Origin: a virus
IMG/VR virus record: IMGVR_UViG_3300042988_000405
Span: 1-50,017 of that record
Reading direction: 5' to 3' (one strand)
Length of the DNA stretch: 50,017 bases
Under the pieces are notes generated by a model that did no database searches, was not told where the DNA came from, and saw only the letters and a list, made by a program, of their open reading frames with translations. Each line of letters opens with the position of its first letter. The stretch's first letter is position 1. This document shows, one piece after another, positions 5,066-42,884 of the stretch. The position numbers were made by a program, and so were the translations under genes.

Positions 5066-5102
5066 GAAACCCCTATAAATAAATTATAGGGGTTTCTTTT
5101 TT
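5066..5102 (+). terminator. Rho-independent terminator containing a late promoter
   Basis: A 13-bp perfect stem (5066-5078 with 5084-5096), a 5-base loop and a T run (5097-5102) follow the 545-residue structural gene. The octamer TATAAATA sits at 5074-5081, across the top of the stem and the loop, so late transcripts starting from it would lack the 5' arm. Confidence 0.85.
5074..5081 (+). promoter_or_regulatory. Late promoter TATAAATA inside the terminator hairpin
   Basis: Exact T4 late octamer embedded in the terminator stem-loop. It would start RNA about 10 bases downstream, in the 3' arm, for the genes beginning at 5114. Confidence 0.6.
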
Positions 5103-5113
5103 AAGGATATAAT

Positions 5114-5338
5114 ATGACAAGAACACAAATTAGGTATGCTATCTTTCGTTGTAAGTCTGGTACACCTACTAAGGAACACGAAGAAATATTTGCTACATAT
5201 AGCGACCAATTAGCAGAATTTGGTTTTACATTAGATGACTTTACGACTGAATGGGACGTCCATAAGAAGGATTTAGACCAAATCGTATATGGAAAAGTTG
5301 CAAAGGCATATAATAAAAACATTCCTATTGTTACCTAA
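5114..5338 (+). CDS. Small hypothetical protein (74 aa)
   Basis: The ATG is preceded by AAGGA at a good distance and by the hairpin-borne late promoter. The 74-residue product is charged and alpha-helical in look (KSGTPTKEHEEIFATYSDQL, then LDDFTTEWDVHKKDLDQIV), without Cys-based motifs or membrane segments. It lies between two large structural genes and its stop overlaps a TAAATA late-promoter core. I do not recognise the family. A small virion component or chaperone for a neighbouring fibre is possible but only from position. Confidence 0.6.
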   Translation: MTRTQIRYAIFRCKSGTPTKEHEEIFATYSDQLAEFGFTLDDFTTEWDVHKKDLDQIVYGKVAKAYNKNIPIVT

Positions 5339-24311: not shown

Positions 24312-24833
24312 ATGTCAGTATGTTATCCTCACCCACAAGGTGATATATCGATGCCAGATGGTGCAGTTGTTAACTATGATGGCGTGCCAGATACTAGCTT
24401 CAGATTGATATTTCCTAAATTACCATGGGTAGTATTATTCATGCAGGGATTTCAGATGCCTGGGTTTAGAGTACAAGAAGTTACTCGAGTTACTCCATAT
24501 GTCGACATGAATGAGATTGGTGAAAAGATTGTGTATGAACCATTCACTGTTACTTATTTCGTAGACTCTGGTTTAAAAAATTATAAATCAGTCTACGACT
24601 GGACAAAGAGAATGTCCGTTGCTGGTACATCAGTAGGTGAATCCTCAGAAGCCATTCTTGTAATTAATGGAGTTGAAATGATTAGGTTTAATGGATGTTG
24701 GCCTATGAGTACTACAGGCTTTAACTTCGAAACCACAGGCTCCGACGTCAACTATCTAAGGGCATCGACCACTTTTAATTATGACTACTACGAGTTCTTG
24801 AACGATCCAGAACCAATTTACATGAATAATTGA
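24312..24833 (+). CDS. Tail-tube-fold protein (gp19/gp54-like)
   Basis: A 173-residue protein whose pattern follows the tube fold seen in gp19: 'DTSFRLIFPKLPWVVLFMQG', 'FQMPGFRVQEVTRVTPYVDM', 'GEKIVYEPFTVTYFVDSGLK' and 'NYKSVYDWTKRM', then 'FNGCWPMSTTGFNFETTG'. The same order occurs in the tube-like part of T4 gp54 (baseplate tube initiator) and its relatives. It is too short for full gp54 and distinct from the gp19 copy at 17858, so it may be a tube initiator, terminator or second tube protein. It sits between capsid and uvsY, where cyanophage-type phages also carry a small tail gene. Confidence 0.6.
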   Translation: MSVCYPHPQGDISMPDGAVVNYDGVPDTSFRLIFPKLPWVVLFMQGFQMPGFRVQEVTRVTPYVDMNEIGEKIVYEPFTVTYFVDSGLKNYKSVYDWTKRMSVAGTSVGESSEAILVINGVEMIRFNGCWPMSTTGFNFETTGSDVNYLRASTTFNYDYYEFLNDPEPIYMNN

Positions 24834-24858
24834 CAAAAAGTCTTTCCTGATCTATAAT
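24830..24858 (+). promoter_or_regulatory. Consensus sigma70 promoter for uvsY-uvsW
   Basis: TTGACA at 24830-24835, a 17-bp spacer and TATAAT at 24853-24858: a perfect host-type promoter overlapping the stop of the tube-fold gene, 29 bases before uvsY. It starts the early recombination/transcription/replication block. Confidence 0.92.
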
Positions 24859-24886: not shown

Positions 24887-25330
24887 ATGTCTTTTGATAT
24901 TTCTGTAGTCCTTGAAGAGTGGAAAGTAGATAGTACTATGACTGAAACAAAGGTCGTAGAAGAACTACTTCGTACACCAAATCTCCATGCTAAGTATCTC
25001 CAGTATTTCCTATACTGTAAAGCAAAGATGAGTAATGCTGATGCTAACTTTAATCGCTTAAAGGGAGTAAAGCGCAGATACTATAAAGGAGAAATGACTC
25101 TCCAAGAATTGCAACAGCGTGGTTGGGATCAATATCAAGGTCTTAAAATGTCCATGTCTGAATTCAATAACATGGTTGAAATGGACGATGACCTTATTTC
25201 CTTACAGGAAAAGGTAGATTATTGGAAATCCAATATACAGATCCTTGAATATATCATGCGCCAGATCCAATCCCGGGATTTTCAACTTAAAGCAATCGTA
25301 GATTATAAAAAATTCATTGAAGGTAACTAA
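24887..25330 (+). CDS. uvsY: Recombination mediator UvsY
   Basis: A 147-residue helical protein (T4 UvsY is 137), preceded by AAGGAGAG. The C-terminal part 'YIMRQIQSRDFQLKAIVDYK' matches the T4 end (ALDAIKSRGFAIKHIQDMRA), and the middle 'KRRYYKGEMTLQEL' matches the T4 'RLDYYSG' region. UvsY forms hexamers, binds single-stranded DNA and gp32 and loads UvsX onto DNA. Its place just before uvsW is as in cyanophage-type phages. It overlaps uvsW by one base (TAATG). Confidence 0.9.
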   Translation: MSFDISVVLEEWKVDSTMTETKVVEELLRTPNLHAKYLQYFLYCKAKMSNADANFNRLKGVKRRYYKGEMTLQELQQRGWDQYQGLKMSMSEFNNMVEMDDDLISLQEKVDYWKSNIQILEYIMRQIQSRDFQLKAIVDYKKFIEGN

Positions 25331-27167: not shown

Positions 27168-27719
27168 ATGAGTCGTGAAAAAGTATTCTATGTAAGTAAT
27201 AAAGAATTGTTTGCAGCATATATGGCATGGTATGCTAAAATTGCTGAAGCCAAAGAGGCTGGTTTAGAAGAACCACCTTTACCAAATTATATTGCTGAAT
27301 GTATGATGAAGATTTGTCGCCGATTATCCTATCGACCAAACTTTGCTAATTATTCATACCGTGACGAGATGATTTCTGATGCAATTGAAAATTGTGTAAA
27401 GAAAGCTCAAAAGTTTAATCCTGAGAAGAGTGATAACCCTTTCTCCTATATTACTACAATTGCATATCATACATTCGTAAATCGTATTACTACTGAAAAG
27501 AAGCAGGCTGCTATCAAGGGCCGACTAATTTCAGAAATTGATTTAAATGATATCATGGACTGTCAGGATCACGATAGTGGTGAGCATAATATTCATGCAC
27601 AGTTTGTAGATTATCTAAAGGAAAACTCATACTTGGTAAATGCTAATGTTGTAGCTCAACCAAAGAGAGTATCTGTAAAGGAAAGTGACGAATTTAACCT
27701 CACAGAATTTGAGGTATAA
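27168..27719 (+). CDS. gp55: Late transcription sigma factor gp55
   Basis: A 183-residue protein (T4 gp55 is 185). Recognisable are 'PLPNYIAECMMKICRRLSYR' near 45-65 and the sigma region-2-like segment 'SYRDEMISDAIENCVKKAQK' with 'FNPEKSDNPFSYITTIAYHT' (near 66-106), which bind core RNA polymerase and the late -10 octamer. The C-terminus is acidic and hydrophobic (EFNLTEFEV), matching the gp55 tail that contacts the sliding clamp. Together with gp45 (encoded at 30879) it would read the TAAATA-core promoters. No gp33 coactivator was recognised in this window. Confidence 0.93.
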   Translation: MSREKVFYVSNKELFAAYMAWYAKIAEAKEAGLEEPPLPNYIAECMMKICRRLSYRPNFANYSYRDEMISDAIENCVKKAQKFNPEKSDNPFSYITTIAYHTFVNRITTEKKQAAIKGRLISEIDLNDIMDCQDHDSGEHNIHAQFVDYLKENSYLVNANVVAQPKRVSVKESDEFNLTEFEV

Positions 27720-30878: not shown

Positions 30879-31541
30879 ATGGAACTATCAAAAACAACAG
30901 TCGACATCCTATCTTGCTTTAGTGGGATTAATACAAATCTAGTTATTCGTGAAGGTAATGTGATTTCTACAAAGTCACAGAATTCTACAATTTATGCAGA
31001 ATTTGAGGGTGAAGATACTTTCGACAAACAGGTTTCTATTTTTAACCTAACAGAATTCCTTGGTGCATATGCAGCTTTTACCAAGCCAGAACTTATCCTA
31101 GATGATAAGTATTGTACAATCAAAGAAGGTCAACAGAAGGTCAAGTATGTTTATGCCGATGAGTCACTCTTGACCATTCCTAACAAGTCTGTTAAACTAC
31201 CTAGTACTGAAATCGAATTTCAACTAACCGCAGATGACCTAGCAAAACTAATCAAGATGGCCGGTGTACTAGCGGTTGATGATCTTGTGTTTGTTGGTGA
31301 CGGTAAGGGTATTGTTGCTAAGGTTTGTGATGACAAGAATCCAACAGGTAACTCTTTCGATATCGGACTAGATGCATCTACAGATCTAAAGTTCAATGTA
31401 AAGTTGAAGGTCGACAAGCTAAAGATGCCAAAGGGTGCATATAATGTCAAGATCAGCAACAAGAAGGTTGGTCAATTTACTCACATGGAACTAAAACTCC
31501 GTGTTATGATTGCACTAGAAACTTCTAGCTCTTTTGAATAA
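30879..31541 (+). CDS. gp45: Sliding clamp gp45
   Basis: A 220-residue DNA polymerase processivity clamp (T4 gp45 is 228). Agreement with T4 is seen at the N-terminus (MELSKTTVDILSCFSGINTN against T4 MKLSKDTTALLKNFATINS), in 'VSIFNLTEFLGAYAAF' and at the C-terminus (VMIALETSSSFE against T4 VVALEADSTHDF). Three copies form a ring that tethers gp43 and, as a mobile enhancer, activates gp55-dependent late transcription. AAATGGAGAAG lies before the ATG. A homing endonuclease gene separates it from the clamp loader. Confidence 0.94.
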   Translation: MELSKTTVDILSCFSGINTNLVIREGNVISTKSQNSTIYAEFEGEDTFDKQVSIFNLTEFLGAYAAFTKPELILDDKYCTIKEGQQKVKYVYADESLLTIPNKSVKLPSTEIEFQLTADDLAKLIKMAGVLAVDDLVFVGDGKGIVAKVCDDKNPTGNSFDIGLDASTDLKFNVKLKVDKLKMPKGAYNVKISNKKVGQFTHMELKLRVMIALETSSSFE

Positions 31542-31561
31542 CAACAAATAAGTAGTGAGTT

Positions 31562-31625
31562 TGATAAAGCTCCATTTCGATAAATAAACATGTCACCGTT
31601 TAAACATCAAATAGGAGCTTTATCA
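31562..31625 (+). promoter_or_regulatory. RBS-hiding hairpin with late promoter in its loop
   Basis: The arm at 31562-31573 (TGATAAAGCTCC) pairs perfectly over 12 bp with 31614-31625, which contains the GGAG ribosome site and the A of the ATG start of the homing endonuclease gene. The 40-base loop holds GATAAATA at 31579-31586, a late-type promoter. Early read-through mRNA would fold and be untranslated; late RNA starting inside the loop would lack the 5' arm. Confidence 0.8.
31579..31586 (+). promoter_or_regulatory. Late promoter GATAAATA in hairpin loop
   Basis: Same octamer as the site before gp22 (21628). Transcription expected to start near 31592-31596, between the two hairpin arms. Confidence 0.55.
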
Positions 31626-32545
31626 TGTTTATTTATACACCATTTACTTACTTAATTGGTTGGTCTTCTAATAATACTTATTACTATGGAGTAAGATATG
31701 CTAAAACAGCACATCCATCAGAACTCTGGACAGTTTATAAAACTTCTTCACCAATAGTAAAAAAGTATGTTGAAGAATTTGGAGACCCTGACATATTAGA
31801 AGTTAGAAAAACTTTTGATAATGCTGAAAGTGCAAGAGATTGGGAAACAAAGGTATTATGTAGGATAAATGCAGCCGGCAGGAGTGACTTTCTAAATCAA
31901 CATAATTTACCTGCACCACCTACATTTTCTGGGGATGAAAATCCATCAAAAAGACAAGATGTTAGGAAAAAGTTATCAGATCAAAAGAAAATCAATAATC
32001 CTATGAGTGATCCTATAATAAGGTCTAATGCAACAGACTCGCTCAAAAGGACAAATATTGAAAAATTCTTAGCGAAGAGACAATTATCTAAGAACTCCAA
32101 AGTTACGGCACTAAGATACTTTAATGACTGTGTTGCATTATATCCTGATAATTTTGTCGACATTCAATGTAAATTGCTAGGATTAATTGAAGAAATTGAC
32201 CAATGGTTAATTGATAATACTCCAAGTAAAGAAGAACTCAAACTTGCTAAGGGACGAGCTATAGCAGCAGGTAAGTTAAAAAATGGCAATAAAAAGTGGT
32301 ACCATGATCCTATTACTTTAGAAACTAGACCATTTAAAGAAGGAGAACAACCATCAGGCTGGGTGTTGGGTATGATAAAAAATACTCCGAACAATAATAC
32401 ACCCGAAGTCAGAAACAAATTAAGTAAAGCACAAAAGGAATATAGAGCAAATGAATCTGAGGATAAGAAAAATTCTAGATTAGCTAAATTTTATGATACT
32501 ATTAATGAACGTAGAACTCTAAATGAAGAAGGAACTAAATTATGA
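31625..32545 (+). CDS. GIY-YIG homing endonuclease with NUMOD3
   Basis: A 306-residue protein inserted between clamp and clamp-loader genes. The N-terminal 100 residues form a GIY-YIG nuclease: 'FTYLIGWSSNNTYYYGVRYA' (YLI and YYG motifs, Arg in GVR), 'LWTVYKTSS' and 'DWETKVLCRI' with the catalytic Glu. Residues about 100-125 (SGDENPSKRQDVRKKLSDQK) are a NUMOD3 DNA-binding repeat, and the C-terminal part has 'KKWYHDP...GEQPSGWVLGMIK', an element common in phage homing nucleases. It would cut unoccupied phage genomes near this site and spread by repair. Its start is hidden in a hairpin. Ends overlapping gene 44 by four bases. Confidence 0.85.
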   Translation: MFIYTPFTYLIGWSSNNTYYYGVRYAKTAHPSELWTVYKTSSPIVKKYVEEFGDPDILEVRKTFDNAESARDWETKVLCRINAAGRSDFLNQHNLPAPPTFSGDENPSKRQDVRKKLSDQKKINNPMSDPIIRSNATDSLKRTNIEKFLAKRQLSKNSKVTALRYFNDCVALYPDNFVDIQCKLLGLIEEIDQWLIDNTPSKEELKLAKGRAIAAGKLKNGNKKWYHDPITLETRPFKEGEQPSGWVLGMIKNTPNNNTPEVRNKLSKAQKEYRANESEDKKNSRLAKFYDTINERRTLNEEGTKL

Positions 32546-38957: not shown

Positions 38958-39359
38958 ATGAGTAAGAAAGTGAAAAAAGCACAAGAAACAGAAATTAAGA
39001 ATTGGGAATTCTATACTGGTTGTGCTATGGGTATACAACTAACTAAGTTCTTTGATGATGATAATGAGGAATTTTATAGTGTATCACTCATGAATGTTTT
39101 AGAGTTTAGCGAATCTGGTGAACCATCTAAGGTTGTATTCCAAGAGACTGCTTTAGTTACTGATACGAAGGAAGAAGCAATCGTTATAACTGCACAATCT
39201 TTGTCTCCATTTTATGATCTATTCGGTACAGTAGTTGTATTCGATGAAGAAGGAGAGGAACTTGAGACTCTTGATCTGACTGAGGTTGTAGAAGAATACA
39301 TGAGTGCTGAAGCAGAACCGGTTGTTGATGAAACAAAGCCTCGAGTAACATTCCATTGA
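38958..39359 (+). CDS. Hypothetical acidic protein (133 aa)
   Basis: CAGGAGA precedes the ATG, 12 bases after gene 43. The 133-residue product has a basic first ten residues (MSKKVKKAQE), then 'NWEFYTGCAMGIQLTKFFDD' and a beta-rich, strongly acidic rest (VVVFDEEGEELETLDLTEVV). It has no catalytic pattern. It stands between polymerase and recombinase genes, followed by a hairpin. Not recognised; a DNA-mimic or accessory replication protein are ideas only. Confidence 0.55.
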   Translation: MSKKVKKAQETEIKNWEFYTGCAMGIQLTKFFDDDNEEFYSVSLMNVLEFSESGEPSKVVFQETALVTDTKEEAIVITAQSLSPFYDLFGTVVVFDEEGEELETLDLTEVVEEYMSAEAEPVVDETKPRVTFH

Positions 39360-39371
39360 CCTAAATAGGTT

Positions 39372-39396
39372 AGTGCAGGGAAACCGAACCTGCACT
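39372..39396 (+). other. Hairpin upstream of uvsX
   Basis: AGTGCAGG and CCTGCACT pair over 8 bp around a 9-base loop, 40 bases before uvsX, without a T run. A weak terminator or mRNA stability element. Confidence 0.45.
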
Positions 39397-39435
39397 CTAA
39401 TATCAAACACGTCGGATTAAATCTAAGGAGAAGTT

Positions 39436-40359
39436 ATGTCATTACTAGAAAAGTTAAAAGCATCTGGATCCATCAAAGGAACAACCGTTGCAGAATCCAA
39501 ATTCTTTGGTGTAAAAGAATTTGCACCAACAAGAATCCCAATTATTAATGCAGCACTAAGTGGTACATTAGATGGTGGATTATCCTCAGGTCTTACAGTA
39601 ATCGCTGGTCCATCTAAGCACTTCAAGTCAAACCTAGGGCTGGTTATGGTTCAGGCTTACATGAAGCGACACAAAGATGCAATCTGTTTATTTTATGATT
39701 CAGAATTCGGTGTTACTCCAGAGTACCTAGAAGCCCACGGCATTGAATCTGAGCGAGTACTACACCTACCTATCGAGCACATTGAGCAACTCAAGTTTGA
39801 TATGGCAAAGAAACTTGAAGATATCAAACGTGGCGACAAGATTATTATCTTTATTGACTCGGTTGGTAACCTTGCTTCCAAGAAGGAAGTAGAAGATGCA
39901 CTAGATGAAAAGTCTGTTGCTGATATGACTCGTGCTAAACAGATGAAGTCACTATTCAGAATTGTTACTCCTCATTTCACAATGAAGGATATTCCTTGTG
40001 TTGTAATTGGTCACACTTACGATACTCAAGAAATGTTCAGTAAGAAGGTTCTGTCTGGTGGATGTTTACTTGCTGGTACAAAGATTCAGATGGCTGATGG
40101 TACTCTGAAAAATATTGAAGACATTTCTCCTTATGATAAAGTACGTACATTACTTGGTCCTAAAGAAGTAACTCATACTTGGAATCCTGAAACACTAGCA
40201 GATGGTGAACCAGAATGCTATGAAATTGAGTTTGAGGATGGATATAAAGTTACTTGCTCTGATAAACATAGATTCATTGTAAACGGTGAATGGGTTGAAG
40301 CCAGAAACCTATCAGAGGGTCAAATTGTTAAATCCATTGATGAATATCTTGTTACCTGA
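39436..40359 (+). CDS. uvsX: UvsX recombinase N-extein fused to split-intein N-half
   Basis: Residues 1-209 are the N-terminal part of the RecA-like UvsX: Walker A 'AGPSKHFKSNLG' near 56, 'CLFYDSEFGVTP' near 83, Walker B 'IIIFIDSVGNLAS' near 137 and 'VIGHTYDTQEMFSKKVLSGG'. At residue 210 an intein begins with Cys ('CLLAGTKIQMADGTLKNIED', block A), with block B near 'YKVTCSDKHRFIVNGEW', and the frame stops (TGA) after 98 intein residues. The rest is encoded at 41299. The joined protein would have about 346 residues. AAGGAG precedes the ATG. UvsX catalyses strand exchange in recombination-dependent replication, so splicing would be essential. Confidence 0.93.
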   Translation: MSLLEKLKASGSIKGTTVAESKFFGVKEFAPTRIPIINAALSGTLDGGLSSGLTVIAGPSKHFKSNLGLVMVQAYMKRHKDAICLFYDSEFGVTPEYLEAHGIESERVLHLPIEHIEQLKFDMAKKLEDIKRGDKIIIFIDSVGNLASKKEVEDALDEKSVADMTRAKQMKSLFRIVTPHFTMKDIPCVVIGHTYDTQEMFSKKVLSGGCLLAGTKIQMADGTLKNIEDISPYDKVRTLLGPKEVTHTWNPETLADGEPECYEIEFEDGYKVTCSDKHRFIVNGEWVEARNLSEGQIVKSIDEYLVT

Positions 40360-40368
40360 ATAGTATAA

Positions 40369-40410
40369 TCTCCATTTGTATAAATAACTATATTACACTG
40401 CAAATGGAGA
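40369..40410 (+). promoter_or_regulatory. RBS-hiding hairpin with late promoter in its loop
   Basis: TCTCCATTTG (40369-40378) pairs perfectly with CAAATGGAGA (40401-40410), covering the GGAGA ribosome site of the homing endonuclease. The 22-base loop begins with TATAAATA (40379-40386), so a late transcript would start inside the loop and lack the 5' arm. The same design precedes the other homing nuclease gene at 31625. Confidence 0.85.
40379..40386 (+). promoter_or_regulatory. Late promoter TATAAATA in hairpin loop
   Basis: Exact T4 late octamer. Start of RNA expected near 40392-40397, just before the 3' arm with the ribosome site. Confidence 0.75.
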
Positions 40411-40415
40411 ATATT

Positions 40416-41318
40416 ATGTACATAGTTTATAAACTAACTTTTAAAACCAGAGAATCTACAAACACATTACCTTGTTATTATATTGGATCCAAATCTAATT
40501 GTAAAGTAATAAATGGTGTTATAATAAACGAAGATGGAAGTGAATATTGGAGTAGCTCTAAATCTTCCTCATTTGCTGAGAGTCTAAGTAAAGAATTACC
40601 AGAAGTGGAAATCTTATACGAAGGTACATCAGCAAAAGATGTAAATCAGGAAGAAAACAGATTACAGAGATTAGTAAATGCTGATACTTCTCCATATTAT
40701 TTTAACCAGTTTGTTGCACCAGTTAATAACTTTACTTGGGATAATTATGGTTCATTTAAGCATATAGATTATCCTGAAAAATGCTGTAGATTACCTTTAG
40801 ATCACCCATTAGTACTCAATAGAACATATGTTGGTGTTACTTATGGTGTAAGACTTACCGAAGAGGAAAAGTTTAAAAGGTATGGTGATGATTTTATGAT
40901 TGGTGAAAAAAATCCATTCTTTGGTAGAACTCACTCAGATGAAACAAAGAAAGTTTTATCTGAAAAGAGGATGGGTAAAGATTATCGCTCTAGTGATCAA
41001 ATTGATGAATGGGTTGCTAATATTGCCAAAAAACCTAAATCTGCTGAACATAGAAGTAAGATTGGTAGAAAAGGTTATATTATGCTCAAAAGTGCAATAA
41101 CTGGCGAAACCATTAGAGTTTTAAAAGAAGAATCTGTAAACTATAATCCAGAAGAATGGAAAAATCCAGCCGCATTTAAAACTGGAATTCCTAATGGATC
41201 AAAGTGGTGCAATAACGGTTCAGTTAACTTAAAGATAAAATCAACAGAAGAGTTGCCATTAGGCTATTCTTATGGTAGAATAATGAAAAGGAAAAGTAAT
41301 GAAAATCAAATCAATTAA
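40416..41318 (+). CDS. GIY-YIG homing endonuclease inside the split uvsX
   Basis: ATG at 40416 preferred (GGAGA five bases upstream); an ATG at 40404 lies within that site. The 300-residue protein has a GIY-YIG domain: 'MYIVYKLTF' (IVY), 'PCYYIGSKSNC' (YIG) and 'EYWSSSKSSSF', with a likely catalytic Glu in 'VNQEENRLQRLV', then 'SPYYFNQ'. NUMOD3 repeat at about 163-190 (GEKNPFFGRTHSDETKKVLS). The C-terminus has 'SKWCNNGS...LPLGYSYGRIMK', like the nuclease at 31625. It is encoded between the two halves of the intein, in a different frame from them, and overlaps the C-half by 20 bases. It would promote spread of the intein insertion. Confidence 0.88.
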   Translation: MYIVYKLTFKTRESTNTLPCYYIGSKSNCKVINGVIINEDGSEYWSSSKSSSFAESLSKELPEVEILYEGTSAKDVNQEENRLQRLVNADTSPYYFNQFVAPVNNFTWDNYGSFKHIDYPEKCCRLPLDHPLVLNRTYVGVTYGVRLTEEEKFKRYGDDFMIGEKNPFFGRTHSDETKKVLSEKRMGKDYRSSDQIDEWVANIAKKPKSAEHRSKIGRKGYIMLKSAITGETIRVLKEESVNYNPEEWKNPAAFKTGIPNGSKWCNNGSVNLKIKSTEELPLGYSYGRIMKRKSNENQIN

Positions 41319-41817
41319 GAGTATCGGTAAACAAAAAGTATATGATGTGACTGTTGAGGATGCAGAACACTATGTGCTAGAAAATGGGGTTGTAACACAT
41401 AATACTGGTCTTTACTATAGTGCAAATCAGATTTTTATGATTGGTCGTAGTCAAGAGAAGGATGGTACAGAAGTCTCTGGATATAATTTTACTATCAATA
41501 TTGATAAATCACGATTTGTTAAAGAAAAGTCAAAGCTGGCATTCTCTGTTAACTTCGATGCAGGTATCAATAAATGGTCAGGTCTAATGGATTTAGCACT
41601 AGAATGTGGTCTAGTGAAGAAACCAAGTAATGGTTGGTTCTCCCATGTAGATGCAGAGACTGGTGAAATCTCCGATAAGAAATGGAGAATGGCAGATACA
41701 AATTCTAAGGAATTCTGGCTACCGGTATTACAACAAAAGGCTTTCCAAGATTTTGTTGAGCAGAAATTTAAACTTGCCACTGCATCGATGATGCAGTTTG
41801 ATGATTCAGAAGATTAA
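41299..41817 (+). CDS. uvsX: Split-intein C-half fused to UvsX C-extein
   Basis: ATG with its own ribosome site (AAGGA six bases upstream) inside the end of the endonuclease gene. Residues 1-35 are an intein C-half: block F 'VYDVTVEDAEHYVL' and block G 'NGVVTHN' with the penultimate His and terminal Asn. Residue 36 is Thr, the +1 nucleophile, starting 'TGLYYSANQIFMIGRSQEKD', which continues UvsX exactly where the N-part stops (T4: SGG/TGVMYSAD). The C-extein (137 residues) ends with 'NGWFSHVDAETGEISDKKWR' and an acidic tail. Trans-splicing with the 39436 product would restore UvsX. Confidence 0.93.
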   Translation: MKIKSIKSIGKQKVYDVTVEDAEHYVLENGVVTHNTGLYYSANQIFMIGRSQEKDGTEVSGYNFTINIDKSRFVKEKSKLAFSVNFDAGINKWSGLMDLALECGLVKKPSNGWFSHVDAETGEISDKKWRMADTNSKEFWLPVLQQKAFQDFVEQKFKLATASMMQFDDSED

Positions 41818-41818
41818 C

Positions 41819-41840
41819 AAAGGCCCGAAAGGGCCTTTTT
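41819..41840 (+). terminator. Rho-independent terminator after uvsX
   Basis: AAAGGCCC and GGGCCTTT form an 8-bp stem with a GAAA tetraloop followed by TTC. It separates the replication block from the next genes. Confidence 0.92.
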
Positions 41841-41842
41841 CA

Positions 41843-41849
41843 TTAAATA
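41843..41849 (+). promoter_or_regulatory. Late promoter-like TTAAATA
   Basis: CATTAAATACTTAAT directly follows the terminator, 31 bases before the gene at 41880; suits late expression of packaged proteins. Confidence 0.45.
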
Positions 41850-41879
41850 CTTAATATTTTAACATCTGGGTTTAACAAC

Positions 41880-42884
41880 ATGATTTCATTTAAAGAATAC
41901 TTGTCAGAAGCAAAAAGTAACGCAGCACACATAAGTGCTAAAGATAATACAGCCATAGCAACAGCAGGTGAACATCTAGTTACTCATCATTTACTTACTC
42001 ATGCTGCAGACAATCACCCAGACCAAAAACATGCTGAGCACTTAAGGAATAAAGCAGCAGAACATTTAGCTGCAGCTAATAAACACTTACACGGTATTGA
42101 TTCTGGTGTCGTGGCTGATGCTCACGGTAGAGCAAAAGCAGGTGCAGATCACTTCTTAAAGCATCATGCTGATGCTGGTACAATTCATGATGTACATCAT
42201 ACAGCAAAGGCAGGAGATGTTACTAGAGTTACTGGTGTAAAGACAAATCAAACTGATGACCCTGCAGATATGGTTGTACATTTTAAGAAAAAAGATGGAC
42301 AAGATTATCATAGAGGTATATCATATAAACATAATAAATCTAATACTTTAGGTACACCTGGTCTAGGAAACATCGATTCAAGATTTGGAACAAAGTTACA
42401 AGCAATGCACACTGAATTTCAAAATTCTCTAAAGTCAAAATTTGGTGCTGAAACAACTGCAAATAAAGCCAAACGTAAAGAATTAGCAGCAAGTAGTCCT
42501 GAAGCAAATGAAATGGCGAAGAAATTTGCCGAGAAGGCAGCAGACCACTATCATGGTGCTTTTAATGGTGCTTCACATGAACACAAATCTGCGCACTTGA
42601 AAGAACTCTTTAAAGCCAATTCTAAAATCCATACTGATACTTTAAAGGTAAAGGGAACTGGTGGTGCTTATTCTTCTGAGTTACATAGCCATGAAGATAA
42701 TAAGTTACACAAAGCAATAAATGATGCTCACCATTTTTCATCTGAAAGAGTTGGATCCACTGTTCATTACTATGCACACGATAAAGATGGTAAAAAGACA
42801 AAGCTAGGATTCTCTGAACACAGATTCACACATGGTGGATTTACTTCTTTTGGTTCACCTACACATAGCGCTAAAATAAAATGA
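41880..42884 (+). CDS. Internal head protein candidate, nuclease-like (334 aa)
   Basis: Begins 'MISFKEYLSEAKSN', closely matching the capsid-targeting sequence of T4 internal proteins (MKTYQEFIAEA) with a gp21-type cut site L-S-E|A. The body is His/Lys/Ala-rich. A possible PD-(D/E)xK nuclease core: 'ATAGEHLVTHHLLTHA' (Glu near 31), 'DPADMVVHF' (Asp near 130) and 'HRGISYKHNKS' (Lys near 150), with 'GLGNIDSRFG' after. This is a pattern judgement, not a recognised family. If both readings hold, it would be a nuclease packaged in the head and injected with DNA. Its stop overlaps the next ATG (ATGA). Confidence 0.55.
   Translation: MISFKEYLSEAKSNAAHISAKDNTAIATAGEHLVTHHLLTHAADNHPDQKHAEHLRNKAAEHLAAANKHLHGIDSGVVADAHGRAKAGADHFLKHHADAGTIHDVHHTAKAGDVTRVTGVKTNQTDDPADMVVHFKKKDGQDYHRGISYKHNKSNTLGTPGLGNIDSRFGTKLQAMHTEFQNSLKSKFGAETTANKAKRKELAASSPEANEMAKKFAEKAADHYHGAFNGASHEHKSAHLKELFKANSKIHTDTLKVKGTGGAYSSELHSHEDNKLHKAINDAHHFSSERVGSTVHYYAHDKDGKKTKLGFSEHRFTHGGFTSFGSPTHSAKIK

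Follow-up and report, generated by a model that had tools for sequence, protein, structure and literature searches.

When is a homing endonuclease gene that lies inside a fractured recombinase gene translated, relative to the recombinase itself? Virus record IMGVR_UViG_3300042988_000405, whose 50,017 bases were analysed in full and are called the window below, raises this question in its uvsX gene. Profile matches and comparison with relatives confirmed an earlier prediction made from the letters of this DNA (the original prediction) that a nuclease gene stands between the halves of a split intein: uvsX is fractured, with the N and C intein halves on two separate genes at one extein site and the nuclease between them. 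Our answer is that a hairpin in the leader of the nuclease gene very likely acts as a translational timing switch, which would keep the nuclease silent on read-through RNA and let it be made from late RNA. This reading draws on the sequence, the predicted fold, the genes for late factors and the recurrence of the arrangement in relatives; the actual transcripts, their timing, their translation and the trans-splicing are the part that we infer.

The hairpin has a perfect 10-bp stem that covers a GGAGA ribosome site and a 22-nt loop, TATAAATAACTATATTACACTG (40379-40400), whose first eight bases are the T4-type late promoter TATAAATA; stem and loop were found in the sequence as originally predicted. 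A weaker lower stem, with one G-U pair, extends the pairing to the AU of the start codon. The minimum free energy (MFE) of the structure is −19.2 kcal/mol (z −2.98), equalled by 1 of 200 shuffles, and the stem outscored 60 of 60 shuffles of its own region. The late RNA start was placed 6 nt past the last A of the motif, which is the T4 spacing, and an RNA beginning there is predicted to be unable to fold the hairpin. The calculated cost of opening the nuclease start site was 15.5 kcal/mol on read-through RNA vs 2.2 on RNA from 40392; it stayed at 2.2-2.5 for every late start from 40389 to 40397, and the drop was also robust to context length. Of 54 window gene starts put to this test, only two were costlier to open. 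Perfect stems of at least 10 bp with a loop of up to 40 nt number 11 in the window, two of them holding TATAAATA, as compared with a mean of 2.3 and no case with TATAAATA in 12 dinucleotide-shuffled windows. A 13-bp stem with a 5-nt loop at 5066-5096 also contains TATAAATA (5074-5081); the ribosome site downstream, belonging to an open reading frame (ORF) at 5114, is open (0.4), and we read this element as a late promoter within a palindrome that hides no start.

In total the window holds about as many TATAAATA copies as chance would give (6 seen vs 5.4 expected, no enrichment), and for this reason we dropped frequency as evidence and used position. Of the five plus-strand copies, four fall 20-75 nt ahead of a gene start, where 0.3 would be expected. 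The same zone, which makes up 6% of the sequence, takes in 15 of the 26 coding-strand copies of TAAATA, with at most 8/35 for same-letter rearrangements and 1/3 on the opposite strand. Because TAAATA clusters upstream of genes and the window encodes both a gp55-type late sigma factor and the gp45 sliding clamp, which is the co-activator of late transcription in T4, the phage very probably uses late promoters of the T4 type, as judged from its sequence.

Relatives whose uvsX is interrupted at this point by the same intein were taken from phage records and viral contigs and narrowed to 33 loci that have a nuclease and differ in their leaders; they fall into 20 nuclease families at 60% identity, and the nucleases are of the GIY-YIG or the HNH type. 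The arrangement also occurs in cultured phages, such as Escherichia phages HY03 and ELT1 and Pseudomonas phage PspYZU05, while the window phage is uncultured. We called a stem strong when it was contiguous, had at least 8 bp and a score of at least 20, and lay over the nuclease start region. Such stems were present at 28 of the 33 nuclease starts vs 3 of 131 starts of other genes at these loci (Fisher 3e-23), the controls comprising 31 uvsX-N starts (none with a stem), 32 intein-C starts (none) and 68 other starts (three); counted by family, the figure was 17/20. Exact TATAAATA preceded the nuclease start at 15/33 loci vs 2/131 controls (2e-10), and 22 loci had the motif when variants (nATAAATA or CTAAATA) were included. 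Of the 26 loci scored for arm position, 22 have a predicted late start that lies between the arms. The mean opening energy of the nuclease starts was 12.8 kcal/mol on read-through RNA vs 3.9 on late RNA, and on the same stretches the uvsX-N and intein-C starts averaged 4.4 and 2.7 kcal/mol. With the latter two cheap to open and the nuclease start costly, the same polycistronic RNA should permit translation of the UvsX halves and bar that of the nuclease. At six split loci that have no nuclease, the intein-C start opened at 0.7-4.2, with no motif and no such hairpin.

Grouping the 5' arms by any shared 6-mer gave 17 groups, several of which are held together by no more than short AT-rich words or the promoter motif. 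Judging from these sequences, the stems appear largely unrelated between families and would mostly not be inherited copies. In two families with homologous stems, compensatory changes were seen: they affect 2 of 11 pairs in a set of Proteus, Escherichia and Klebsiella phages and 4 of 10 pairs in a set of three HNH-nuclease contigs, and in both sets 100% of cells are paired. Loci L023 and L040 share an identical 14-bp stem around a diverged loop, and in the L045 family, where nuclease start and uvsX-N overlap, a hairpin with AATAAATA is still present (opening 16.1 on read-through, 2.1 on late RNA).

Several points weigh against the timing switch. Five of the 33 loci have no strong contiguous stem (L024, L029, L056, L060, L065), L015 and L016 have a predicted late start within or beyond the 3' arm, and several others carry only variant motifs (AATAAATA, CATAAATA, CTAAATA) or none. 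The covariation comes from small sets of 4 and 3 sequences, for which 29/500 and 4/500 shuffles scored as high. The 33 loci are partly non-independent, with kinship varying across the 20 families, and some nuclease start codons were picked by hand. For the window phage itself the switch is a prediction, and the timing of uvsX transcription is assumed from T4.

Under the proposed switch, RNA reading through from uvsX-N would fold the hairpin and bury the nuclease ribosome site; the ribosome sites of UvsX-N and UvsX-C would be open on this RNA, so that both halves could be made and trans-spliced without the nuclease. The uvsX-N and nuclease genes are collinear, and no plus-strand terminator-like site was found between them. 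Late, RNA polymerase with gp55 would start in the loop at TATAAATA (~40392), and the resulting RNA, lacking the 5' arm, would leave the ribosome site open for synthesis of the nuclease. That the site is hidden on read-through RNA and exposed on late RNA had been predicted, and the folding, the gp55 and gp45 genes and the related nuclease starts support it. A temporal separation of the nuclease from UvsX is reasonable, with the timing of uvsX taken from T4 by analogy.

A switch of this kind is established for T4 I-TevI, and similar arrangements are described for I-TevII, I-TevIII, segB and Aeh1 mobE (PMC2988022). When the same start-site test was applied to T4 it picked out I-TevI (12.9 to 1.6) and segB (16.2 to 4.9) and not nrdA, td or frd. 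The original prediction that the locus uses exactly the I-TevI logic held for the logic, and not for the geometry. As in I-TevI, a GIY-YIG nuclease lies inside a gene of nucleotide or DNA metabolism, a hairpin hides the ribosome site and the start on read-through RNA, and a late promoter within the structure frees them. In I-TevI and segB, however, the late-promoter element is in the 5' arm beside the start site (AATAAATA, 31 nt from the start, for I-TevI), whereas here TATAAATA is in the loop; moreover, I-TevI resides in a group I intron and depends on RNA splicing, while here we predict protein trans-splicing through a split intein. T4 segB and Aeh1 mobE are likewise free-standing homing endonucleases with a late promoter and a hairpin that hides the ribosome site (PMC2988022). 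The former lies between tRNA genes; the latter also splits a gene, nrdA, although the nrdA pieces assemble without an intein and the uvsX pieces carry intein halves. The early-silent, late-translated logic is shared with T4 e and soc (PMC3014915), which unlike the nuclease are the phage's own late genes and not a mobile element. Finally, in fractured genes (Dassa 2009) the break is likewise at an intein and the two parts flank a free-standing nuclease; the timing switch on the nuclease is a difference, none having been met in the portions of the accounts of that class that we consulted.

Could the hairpin be something other than a switch? It lies 10 nt past the UvsX-N stop codon, where a transcription terminator or attenuator after uvsX-N might be looked for. 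Nevertheless, we rejected an intrinsic terminator, which calls for a GC-rich stem and a T-run: the stem is AT-rich, the loop has 22 nt and no T-run follows, there are 0 plus-strand terminator-like sites in 39300-41950, and stopping there would cost the phage UvsX-C as well. Termination is thus very improbable, and a chance hairpin with a chance TATAAATA in AT-rich DNA is hardly credible at all. The motif count in the window is indeed what chance would give, but chance is strongly disfavoured by the 28/33 recurrence with mostly unrelated stems, the compensatory changes, the position over the start and the absence at other gene starts. We also consider it unlikely, if less so, that the region doubles as a DNA operator through which the nuclease, bound close to its late promoter, represses itself. 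Autorepression of this sort is known for I-TevI from a review, and the window hairpin region is more similar to the joined uvsX insertion site than to 96% of other uvsX segments; across 32 loci, however, the mean percentile was 0.63 with 3 above 0.95 vs ~1.6 expected, which gives no clear family-wide signal.

The purpose of the timing switch is a separate matter. The original prediction had it confining a toxic nuclease to late infection, which the closest precedent does not support: removal of the I-TevI hairpin reduced neither viability nor burst size and impaired td intron splicing (PMC3014915). Since the loss was felt in host intron splicing, protection of the UvsX supply is by analogy a likelier rationale than containment of a toxic nuclease. 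In its specific form, to which we give slightly less than an even chance, the benefit of the same switch would be to stop ribosomes from translating the nuclease into the overlapping intein-C/UvsX-C start, thereby protecting UvsX assembly. The 20-nt overlap of the nuclease and intein-C genes fits this proposal, as do the open intein-C ribosome site (1.0, with a family mean of 2.7) and the role of the I-TevI hairpin as guard of td splicing. Some loci with the hairpin, on the other hand, have a gap of at least 100 nt between nuclease and intein-C (e.g., L019, L072), so the overlap cannot be the sole reason for the switch.

Table 1. Features of the fractured uvsX locus and late-transcription genes in the window.
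Feature	Position	Strand	Basis
UvsX N-extein	39436..40062	+	RecA Pfam match; 46-68% identity to relatives
Split intein N half, stop TGA 40357-40359	40063..40359	+	43-65% identity to intein-N of other phages, insertion point identical
Weaker lower stem, 5' side	40360..40366	+	MFE structure; pairs with 40411-40417
Hairpin 5' arm tctccatttg	40369..40378	+	Sequence
T4-type late promoter TATAAATA, loop bases 1-8	40379..40386	+	Sequence, position relative to gene starts
Predicted late RNA start	40392	+	6 nt past last A of motif
Hairpin 3' arm caaatggaga	40401..40410	+	Sequence
Shine-Dalgarno GGAG within 3' arm	40406..40409	+	Sequence
GIY-YIG/NUMOD3 homing endonuclease, 300 aa, ATG 40416-40418	40416..41318	+	phrog_7504 homing endonuclease 1.7e-24; NUMOD3
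AGGA ribosome site of intein-C/UvsX-C gene, inside nuclease gene	41289..41292	+	Opening energy 1.0 kcal/mol, accessible
Split intein C half, start overlapping nuclease end	41299..41403	+	Profile search, comparison with relatives
UvsX C-extein	41404..41817	+	T4_UVSX_C 2.4e-18
gp55-type late sigma factor	27168..27719	+	phrog_234 1.8e-49
gp45 sliding clamp	30879..31541	+	phrog_223 3e-63

The window carries further T4-type genes for portal, major head protein, clamp loader, RegA, DNA polymerase, helicase and primase. The intein N half matched Intein_splicing at 7.8e-06, under the family cut-off. By its sequence the nuclease belongs to the GIY-YIG homing endonucleases, with a GIY-YIG N-terminus followed by NUMOD motifs: NUMOD3 is above cut-off and the Y-I-G-S block is conserved, and the Pfam SegE_GIY-YIG model scored only 0.36, below cut-off. 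It shares 42% identity with a homing endonuclease of Vibrio phage EniLVp02. A search of viral contigs with the single protein returned no close relatives, and one with a cultured-phage alignment as query succeeded. The start at 40404 given by the ORF list, inside the stem, was dropped as relatives align from 40416 with an invariant M there. Among the relatives, L007, L052, L055, L060, L063-L068, L070, L072-L075 and L077 have an HNH-like domain in place of GIY-YIG and keep a similar NUMOD3/C-terminal part (residues ~161-255 of the window protein), an exchange of nuclease domains on a common DNA-binding tail. L040, L053, L076 and L126 represent stages in the loss of the nuclease from between the intein halves, with truncated or remnant nucleases or just a short gap; in L040 the nuclease is down to 48 codons and the stem is still intact.

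Strong hairpins were also noticed at two other gene starts in the window. A second probable GIY-YIG homing endonuclease (31625-32545) lies between the clamp gp45 and clamp loader gp44 genes, and in its leader (region 31545-32545) a very strong hairpin (z −6.18) hides the ribosome site and start codon. GATAAATA stands at 31579 in an alternative 5' arm, and the modelled opening energy goes from 17.7 to 4.2 for a late start; on this model it is the same kind of switch, in a geometry nearer that of I-TevI. Downstream of late head genes, the ribosome site of uvsY (24887-25330) is under a strong hairpin whose leader holds a perfect sigma-70 promoter, TTGACA-17-TATAAT (24830-24858); its start would fall between the arms and lower the opening energy from 18.9 to 7.9. 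The uvsY hairpin is possibly a mirror-image switch, which would silence late read-through RNA and let early RNA be translated; the arrangement was not seen in two distant relatives (L139, L140).

The logic of the switch is known already, and, judged from the open-access literature, in which we found no report of a uvsX with a split intein and a homing endonuclease, what appears new is its near-universal and apparently repeatedly evolved use inside a split-intein gene, here with the promoter in the loop. Tentatively, and at rather less than even odds, we propose that a late-only switch is near-obligatory in nuclease-bearing split-intein uvsX genes and has been re-evolved repeatedly, each GIY-YIG or HNH nuclease gaining its own unrelated hairpin and late promoter, since translating the nuclease early would interfere with expression of intein-C. 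The finding joins two fields that have been studied apart, the fractured genes with split inteins and the late-hairpin switch of T4 homing nucleases. If true, it would explain how the gene of an important recombinase can hold a nuclease gene between its intein halves with the recombinase supply undisturbed, and would provide naturally occurring RNA hairpins that are mutually unrelated and subject to one selection, a series that includes cultured phages of E. coli, Salmonella, Proteus, Yersinia, Pseudomonas and Vibrio in which direct tests are possible.
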